Assembly (NCBI RefSeq): GCF_003581425.1
Contig: NZ_QXTG01000003.1
Coordinates: 293-64,292, forward strand
Length of the DNA stretch: 64,000 nucleotides
Source: Amnibacterium setariae
GTDB lineage: Bacteria > Actinomycetota > Actinomycetes > Actinomycetales > Microbacteriaceae
Reading direction: 5' to 3'
The notes below the pieces were generated by a model that was not told where the DNA came from, searched no databases, and saw only the letters and a program-made list of their open reading frames with translations. The translations under genes were made by a program, and so were the position numbers. Shown here piece by piece: positions 29,229 to 30,165 of the stretch (the first letter of the stretch is position 1; every line of letters begins with the position of its first letter).

Positions 29229-29407
29229 CTCCCGACGGTACGGACGCGGCGCAGCCGGCACATCCCCCGGGCGGGGTGCCTCCCGGCCCCCTGCTCCGGT
29301 ACTGCGGCACGGAAGGACTGTCGTGCGCACCGCGCCTGACGGAGGGGAGCCGCGGGTGCCCCGACGACGGCGAAGGCCCGGAGTTCCAGAGGAATCCGGG
29401 CCTGGCG

Positions 29408-29481
29408 TAGCGGGGGCGGGACTTGAACCCGCGACACCACGATTATGAGCCGTGTGCTCTAACCACCTGAGCTACCCCGCC
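29408..29481 (-). tRNA. tRNA-Met (CAT)
   Basis: A 74-nt tRNA with acceptor GGCGGGG/CCCCGCT (G-U at the end), D arm GCTCAGGTGGTTAGAGC, anticodon loop CTCATAA (CAT) and T loop TTCAAGT. It lacks the three G-C pairs of initiator tRNA below the anticodon, so it is elongator Met; tRNA-Ile2, modified at C34, is the alternative. Confidence 0.92.
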
Positions 29482-29522
29482 GCGAGGACCTGCGGCCGCG
29501 GGGTGCGCGACCGGCCTGTCCG

Positions 29523-29594
29523 AGCCCCGAAAGAGGATTGAACTCTTGACCTTCTCCTTACCATGGAGATGCTCTACCACTGAGCTATCGGGGC
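29523..29594 (-). tRNA. tRNA-Thr (GGT)
   Basis: A 72-nt tRNA with acceptor GCCCCGA/TCGGGGC, anticodon arm TCTCC-ATGGTAA-GGAGA giving GGT, T loop TTCAATC and discriminator T. It lies 41 nt upstream of tRNA-Met on the same strand, and the two are probably transcribed together. Confidence 0.96.
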
Positions 29595-29902
29595 CTGCAT
29601 CGAGCCCGTCGCCGGGCCGGAAGCGACGACGACTCTAGCATCCCGCTCCCCGCTCCCTCTCCGCCTGCCGGCTCCGTGTCGCCTCGCGCCGGAGGGGTGC
29701 GCCGGCCGCCCTTCCGCTGCCACGAGGCGGTGGCGGCGTGGCGCTCCGAGCCCCTGTCCGAGGGGCGTGGGATCGTGGCGTCCAGCCCGCGACACGCCGC
29801 CCGAGCGTGTTCCGCAGCCCGTCGAGCCGCATGGTTCCGGGCGACACGCTGAGAACCCTCCGACACAACATCTAGGGGCTCGATTCTCCGGACCCCCCGG
29901 GA
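29595..29902. other. Intergenic region without a supported gene
   Basis: No convincing protein gene. On the minus strand a TAGAGT box (29632-29637 on the plus strand) lies about 38 nt upstream of tRNA-Thr and may be its -10 element. Open frames here have Arg/Pro-rich composition typical of random high-GC DNA. The plus-strand promoter at 29903 begins the small-peptide unit. Confidence 0.6.
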
Positions 29903-29908
29903 TATAGT
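29879..29908 (+). promoter_or_regulatory. Promoter of the 27-aa peptide unit
   Basis: TATAGT (29903-29908) is a near-consensus -10 box. A weak TCGATT -35 (29880-29885) lies 17 bp upstream. The predicted transcript starts near 29915. Confidence 0.6.
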
Positions 29909-29914
29909 GGTTCC

Positions 29915-30010
29915 ACTCGCTCCTCGAGCGGGGGCCGCACATCGTGCGGGAGCAGTGCACACCCGCCGCCGACTGGGGAAGGTCGACGGCAGCGAGCGGA
30001 AGGAGCGGTC
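29915..30010 (+). promoter_or_regulatory. Highly structured 5' leader of the 27-aa peptide
   Basis: Three consecutive hairpins can form: about 29916-29932 (7 bp, CTC loop), 29935-29949 (CCGCAC/GTGCGG, ATC loop) and 29965-29990 (GCCG..GAC/GTC..CGGC, 8-nt loop with one C-A mismatch). Nearly the whole leader is paired up to the GGAAGGAG ribosome binding site. It may be a cis-regulatory RNA, or the transcript may be a small RNA that also encodes a peptide. Confidence 0.5.
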
Positions 30011-30094
30011 ATGAACTTCGACACGGAGAGCATCGACGGCTACGCGATTCCGGTCGACCCGATGGATCTGCTGCAGTGCGACAGCTGCCAGTGA
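30011..30094 (+). CDS. 27-aa micropeptide with C-terminal CxxC
   Basis: The peptide begins MNFDTESIDGYAIPVDP and ends MDLLQCDSCQ. It has a strong GGAAGGAG 5 nt before the ATG, a near-consensus -10 box about 100 nt upstream, and a 16-bp terminator 32 nt after the stop, so it is the only coding frame of its transcript. The peptide is acidic (five Asp/Glu against no Lys or Arg), unlike chance frames in this genome, which are Arg/Ala/Pro rich. The C-terminal CDSC could bind a metal or form a disulfide. No signal peptide, maturation enzyme or exporter is adjacent. I do not recognise the family; a signalling, metal-related or regulatory role is speculative. Confidence 0.65.
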   Translation: MNFDTESIDGYAIPVDPMDLLQCDSCQ

Positions 30095-30126
30095 CGAGGT
30101 CGATCACCGATCGCTGACCACGGTCA

Positions 30127-30165
30127 CGAAGGGCCCCTGCGAATCCCGATCGCAGGGGCCCTTCG
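30127..30165 (+). terminator. Strong intrinsic terminator after the 27-aa peptide
   Basis: Arms 30127-30142 and 30150-30165 pair perfectly over 16 bp around a 7-nt loop. The stem lies 32 nt after the peptide stop codon and may also serve the convergent aldo/keto reductase gene. Confidence 0.85.

Follow-up and report, generated by a model that had tools for sequence, protein, structure and literature searches.

The window, a 64-kb stretch of the 3.48-Mb Amnibacterium setariae genome, carries on its forward strand a short, physically isolated transcription unit. Its ORF (30011-30094, stop included) encodes a 27-residue peptide, MNFDTESIDGYAIPVDPMDLLQCDSCQ, followed by the stop codon. Upstream lie two NrdR-like boxes, ACACAACATCTAGGGG at 29863-29878 and CCCCGGGATATAGTGG at 29895-29910, separated by a 16-bp spacer; they are the only pair scoring at least 19/32 within the 64 kb. 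A -10-like TATAGT (29903-29908) lies within the second box. The untranslated leader spans 29911-30010 and includes the Shine-Dalgarno sequence GGAAGGAG at 29998-30005, and a terminator-like stem-loop with a 16-bp stem occupies 30127-30165, 32 nt past the stop. Genes for tRNA-Met and tRNA-Thr lie upstream on the reverse strand (29407-29594). These tRNA genes are recurrent neighbours, both being found in 28 of 80 named loci as they are here, and stand outside the mechanism proposed below.

A sequence-only reading had described a complete stand-alone unit, and the ORF, TATAGT, Shine-Dalgarno sequence and 16-bp stem it listed are all present. It started the unit at 29879, which excludes the first regulatory box (29863-29878), a box kept across stand-alone copies, and it overlooked the position of TATAGT inside the second. 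Its terminator stands as a stem that folds better than shuffled sequence (z -5.4, 0/200), but the stem has no T-run, and consensus scanners called neither a promoter nor a terminator at the unit. Its leader hairpins can be drawn, but folding is not above chance (z -0.54, 61/200 shuffles), nor is the leader conserved as a structured RNA. In an alignment of seven same-genus loci, 11% of leader positions are invariant, as against 87% of the CDS, and variable sites number 2/0/7 at codon positions 1/2/3 (27 each). The peptide is conserved rather than the RNA, the reverse of what would have spoken against a coding unit. At gathering score, Rfam finds tRNAs and nothing else across the whole window.

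Homologous frames, which that reading had looked to close relatives to provide, occur in all seven same-genus genomes, the window's own included, at 93-100% identity; the acidic CxxC micropeptide is conserved. It contains neither Lys nor Arg, a trait described earlier as unlike chance frames; both residues are absent from only 3 of 58 ORFs of 20-40 residues with an ATG start in the window, and from 78 of 79 related peptides. Searched singly against 60 genomes, the peptide has matches at E<=1 in 24, five of them chance-like (E 0.28-0.92) and two (G045, G058) fused tails of the kind described below. A profile built from 17 tails, in which both Cys of CDSCQ are invariant in 17/17 aligned rows, matches 137 of 299 genomes sampled within the family, two copies being commonest. 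Among 396 genomes sampled across the phylum, just 3 match the same profile, one of them the window's own; of the other two matches, one lies inside a 909-codon frame and one is weak. Among 62 unique 27-codon stand-alone or operonic CDSs, pN/pS is 0.087 over codons 11-27 and 0.63 over the preceding codons, and among 63 unique viral copies it is 0.116 over the last 18 codons. Because the motif DPM[DE]xLQC served to find the loci, these ratios and part of the box counts below are inflated as evidence; purifying selection is also visible, free of motif ascertainment, in the seven-locus same-genus alignment. The unit is real and coding. No known family claims the peptide (one chance-level match in Pfam, none in NCBIfam or PHROGs), and across the records examined the ORF of about 27 residues is mostly unannotated or labelled hypothetical. 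One locus in a record labelled "Acidobacteria bacterium" (L294, JABBOB010000081.1) is Amnibacterium-like, stand-alone and identical over 100% of the peptide; it is probably a mislabelled MAG or a bin contaminant.

Sequence comparison shows the peptide to be a homologue of DPMDxLQCxSCQ, the redox tail at the C-terminus of the alpha chain in class I ribonucleotide reductase (RNR). Outside Microbacteriaceae the tail is covalently fused to alpha in 28 of 29 loci (25 of 26 parsed, and three unparsed ones fused on inspection), a narrow set since it comprises the best 29 of 62 matching genomes other than the window's own and 24 of its loci come from one genus. The sole non-fused locus among them is L396, where the tail lies in a different frame. 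A representative fused chain ends in DTEVVDGVACPVDPMEALQCESCQ, compared with FDTESIDGYAIPVDPMDLLQCDSCQ in the window peptide. A second copy of the tail in the window's own genome lies between the genes for RNR alpha and beta. This alpha scores 1613 bits against NCBIfam NF005101, and its best PDB match is P. aeruginosa NrdA (5im3). For the operon's beta the PDB gives C. trachomatis NrdB as best match, and beta has Phe at the radical-Tyr position, its EEANHCMSF aligning with EEAVHTHTF of C. trachomatis. The sequence-only reading, which had offered a redox-binding micropeptide among its options, did not recognise the RNR tail, the paralogue between nrdA and nrdB, or the phage and plasmid copies; the Cys pair of the tail is probably redox-active.

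In Microbacteriaceae with this type of RNR the alpha chain lacks this tail. Among 36 nrd loci from the family, 33 were parsed and 32 gave complete alpha C-termini (the alpha motif searched for is absent from L163, L176 and L181), and none of the 32 ends in CxxC. No Cys at all follows the YYLH motif in 31 of the 32; the exception, with one Cys, is L068, the nrdA locus of G015, where the alpha frame continues beyond the tail ORF. This read-through is possibly a sequencing frameshift, because the assembly is 86% complete. In the alpha of the window's genome, Cys 225, 439 and 454 (numbered from ITVVKR) are retained; by the roles known for E. coli we take these to be the active-site cysteines, and the chain has just one further Cys, four in total. 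All three are present in 17 of 18 listed alphas. L063, the nrdA locus of G002, is the one without the middle (NLC) cysteine; its assembly is fragmented, and the absence may be an error or a real change.

Tail ORFs between nrdA and nrdB encode about 22-40 residues and are separate from alpha, starting, over all candidate starts, from -53 to +58 nt relative to the alpha stop, often with a 1- or 4-nt overlap. Because relative frame and offset vary between genera, the tail is an ORF in its own right, often a coupled one, and a programmed frameshift from alpha into the tail is excluded. Two further candidates were rejected. Open frames of 844 and 1475 codons at some Microbacteriaceae tails are not fusions, the tail frame differing from that of alpha, and a basic RRGFG docking motif is not specific to split alphas, being found in most fused ones too.

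Tail and alpha occur together. Among 299 genomes surveyed from the family, 130 have an NF005101-type alpha, and every one of these also has a tail gene; the alpha cut, best E <= 1e-190, was our own choice, and 123 of the 130 pass the curated cut-off. Seven of the 299 have a tail match with no full alpha match, five of them being incomplete or fragmented assemblies and two showing weak matches. When places of tail and nrdA were compared by eye in the 43 alpha-bearing genomes of a set of 45, four (G021, G081, G150, G165) had tail copies only away from nrdA. G021 is a single contig, 98% complete, whose only tail gene is distant from nrdA. In G021 and G081 this alpha is the sole PF02867 protein found; G150 has one extra, sub-threshold PF02867 match, and G165 has a second RNR alpha, so that its tail need not be essential. 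In genomes of this kind, gene arrangement makes action of the tail in trans look forced.

Paired boxes like those of the window occur at both kinds of tail gene. We scored them against ACACWATATATWGTGT, which we take to be the NrdR consensus. Every one of the 21 nrdA operons has a pair scoring at least 21, as do 56 of the 57 parsed stand-alone copies (59 given); shuffling each sequence ten times gave no pair above 20. In the overlapping set of named loci, 77 of 80 are stand-alone by motif test, and 75 of the 77 have a pair scoring at least 21, 73 of these at 32-33 bp. Two boxes at a permitted spacer and overlapping the promoter are the arrangement expected of an NrdR-regulon member, given the consensus assumed here, and the genome encodes NrdR. 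Spacers are mostly 16-17 bp, and spacers of 14-17 bp permit NrdR binding (PMC12051234). NrdR would be predicted to bind and control the unit. Within about 2 kb downstream, 60 of the 80 named loci have an ORF, labelled by eye, which we take to be maoC-like.

Other elements were seen in these promoters. In genera other than the window's, many stand-alone promoters have a palindrome-like GGAATGACA-N4-TGTCATTCC between the boxes, and GGAATGACAnnnnTGTCATTCC or a similar sequence takes that position in many genera (stand-alone promoters L009-L013 and L123-L162). The GGAATGACAnnnnTGTCATTCC-type element is absent from the Amnibacterium stand-alone copies and the nrdA operon promoters compared, and is possibly the site of a second regulator. 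Three tail copies distant from nrdA, L184 (in G112), L317 and L340, have no paired boxes; these are possibly mobile-element copies.

The tail also occurs in phages and plasmids. A scan of viral contigs gave 355 stretches with the pattern, of which 346 were confirmed. In 80 stretches kept, the tail frame is open for merely 27-204 codons, beta occurs in one, and the motif test found no alpha signature. PF02867 is likewise absent from all ten viral records tested, six of them IMG/VR entries and possibly fragments; one of the ten contains PF00268, hence tail plus beta, and the other nine have the tail alone. On one 58.9-kb IMG/VR contig (L219:3946-5078), a complete class Ic-like beta is followed by the tail, with no alpha match. 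Four named phages, CMP1, phiPsal1, CN1A and Pan2, have the tail. Taken singly, the tblastn matches to them are weak (E from 0.008 to 1), and the assignment depends on the ORFs read out of the records and on their placement: directly 3' of the holin gene in CMP1 and phiPsal1, and, in CN1A, after endolysin and holin genes and then a metallophosphatase gene. The Pan2 tail reads MDDFDTIDGFACPNDPADLVSCESCQ, and the annotated CDS Pan2_27 is in a different frame (L287:3995-4075). The cyanobacterial host label of Pan2, a Pseudanabaena phage, is unexpected, the other three infecting Microbacteriaceae.

An ORF of at least 50 residues ends close to the tail start in 78 of 83 parsed viral or phage loci (84 given). 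By motif, 34 of these upstream ORFs are terminase-like and 21 holin-like. Ten of them compared with PHROGs gave two terminases, two holins, one endolysin, one RNR small subunit, one minor tail protein, one family of unknown function and two without a match. Plasmid copies come from 19 records (Clavibacter 15, Leifsonia 3, Gryllotalpicola 1). On the plasmid of Leifsonia sp. ZF2019 (L402:4962-5063), the 33-residue tail WP_223361114.1 is named "ribonucleotide-diphosphate reductase subunit beta", probably a misnomer for a product far too short to be beta. On a mobile-looking contig (L189:2249-2628), the tail ORF overlaps the start of an NrdH gene at TGATG, the NrdH scoring 96 bits against a cut-off of 85.75; as a sign of how the tail may be re-reduced, this neighbour is only suggestive. 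A second tail copy on the same contig lies near an SSB-like ORF.

RNR has an established need for a Cys pair at the C-terminus that re-reduces the disulfide of the active site. Class I RNRs are described as having a double-cysteine C-terminus on alpha "almost exclusively" (PMC9669993), and of 2022 class I sequences 1737 have CXXC (PMC9531940); from the latter count, some class I sequences in that set are without the pair. In class I the alpha tail is normally attached covalently, and here it is encoded separately. For class II, a precedent is described in Pseudomonas aeruginosa (PMC4520616): in this B12-dependent RNR, NrdJb, of 229 residues and encoded in one operon with NrdJa, performs thiol-disulfide exchange in trans. 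Given the need for a Cys pair, the NrdJb precedent and the class I norm, the most fitting reading of the window peptide is a class I tail that has become detached.

As with NrdJa and NrdJb, the catalytic chain and the cysteine-tail chain would be separate polypeptides, and the alpha here has no terminal Cys pair. Unlike NrdJab, the enzyme is class I rather than class II, the tail is a peptide of about 27 residues rather than a subunit of about 230, an extra stand-alone gene has NrdR-like boxes, and there are phage and plasmid copies. By this analogy the Amnibacterium tail would work like NrdJb, but it is no member of the NrdJb family. With the CxxC tail of class I alpha it shares the homologous DPMxxLQCxSCQ, and the chemistry is presumably the same. 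The Chlamydia trachomatis class Ic RNR, an enzyme with a Mn/Fe cofactor, resembles the system in beta (the best PDB match and the Phe) and differs in that the tail is separate in Microbacteriaceae. Phage RNR genes split by introns, inteins and homing endonucleases are described in PMC3653736; those are interrupted full subunits, and the likeness is that RNR genes come in pieces, whereas the viral records tested here have the tail alone (9/10) or tail plus beta (1/10). Among the titles and abstract openings listed from open-licence PMC text, none describes a separate class I tail peptide.

The reading we hold to be very probably correct is that of a detached, trans-acting RNR tail that passes electrons from NrdH or thioredoxin to alpha, with an NrdR-controlled extra copy and with phage and plasmid copies in support; on it the isolated unit is functionally part of RNR. 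The tail would have disappeared from the alpha chain itself while the three active-site Cys were retained, and each turnover would leave an active-site disulfide in need of re-reduction. Free peptide would come from two sources, the ORF between nrdA and nrdB and the NrdR-controlled stand-alone unit. It would enter the alpha active site, exchange disulfides through its CxxC and leave, the oxidised peptide being re-reduced by NrdH or thioredoxin. Induction of the stand-alone copy together with nrdAB would raise the ratio of peptide to alpha, and phage and plasmid copies would support the host enzyme. Going further, we incline, by a modest degree, to the view that the free peptide of about 25 residues is an exchangeable redox co-substrate whose dose is set by NrdR, the phage or plasmid mini-gene keeping host RNR turning.

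Several observations sit uneasily with the trans-acting tail. Phage copies adjoin late genes (terminase, holin, endolysin), whereas demand for dNTPs is expected earlier; a redox role alone leaves the two host copies unaccounted for; and the second RNR alpha of G165, the seven genomes with a tail match and no full alpha match, and the one-genus bias of the fused set (24/29) also count against it.

The separate transcription unit and the phage copies would also fit a regulator or decoy, a free tail that, rather than carrying electrons for turnover, tunes or inhibits RNR by titrating or competing with the reductant, beta or the tail from the operon; phages would use it to redirect dNTP synthesis. 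Small RNR inhibitors of the Sml1 type exist and offer a precedent. The CxxC is retained, however, in the copies read (found partly through CxxC), and G021 has its only tail away from nrdA, with this alpha as its sole PF02867 protein. Since all 32 complete alpha C-termini are without the tail, some tail peptide must serve the redox job, and we consider a regulator or decoy improbable. Two copies in most tail-bearing genomes appear redundant, as they would if the stand-alone copy were a non-functional duplicate of the operonic tail. Such a relic is very unlikely in view of the purifying selection (pN/pS with its ascertainment caveat, the same-genus alignment free of it), the conserved promoter boxes, the recurrent maoC-like neighbour (60/80) and the genomes with no nrdA-adjoining tail. 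A small, acidic peptide with a CxxC could also be a signalling peptide, a metal-binding micropeptide or a RiPP precursor with no tie to RNR, a reading already disfavoured and given slighter credence still when set against the homology with fused alphas, the co-occurrence with alpha in 130/130 genomes and the shared NrdR-like boxes. That the unit is a dual-function small RNA, as once proposed, or a structured leader in which the ORF is incidental, is already refuted as a main function and hardly credible: hairpins drawn in a minimum-free-energy fold are set against the leader z-score, the invariance and codon-position figures and the tRNA-only Rfam result given above.

Class I RNR is a textbook enzyme with a tethered tail. 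A lineage in which the tail is detached would allow long-standing questions, whether the tail acts in cis or in trans and what limits re-reduction, to be tested by adding or withholding synthetic peptide. The finding suggests that an ORF of about 27 residues can belong to an essential enzyme, and that a micro-gene serving dNTP supply can be present in phages that have no RNR alpha; if true, the tail mini-gene would be among the shortest auxiliary metabolic genes. The tail sequence is also a marker that may tie viral contigs to Microbacteriaceae hosts.
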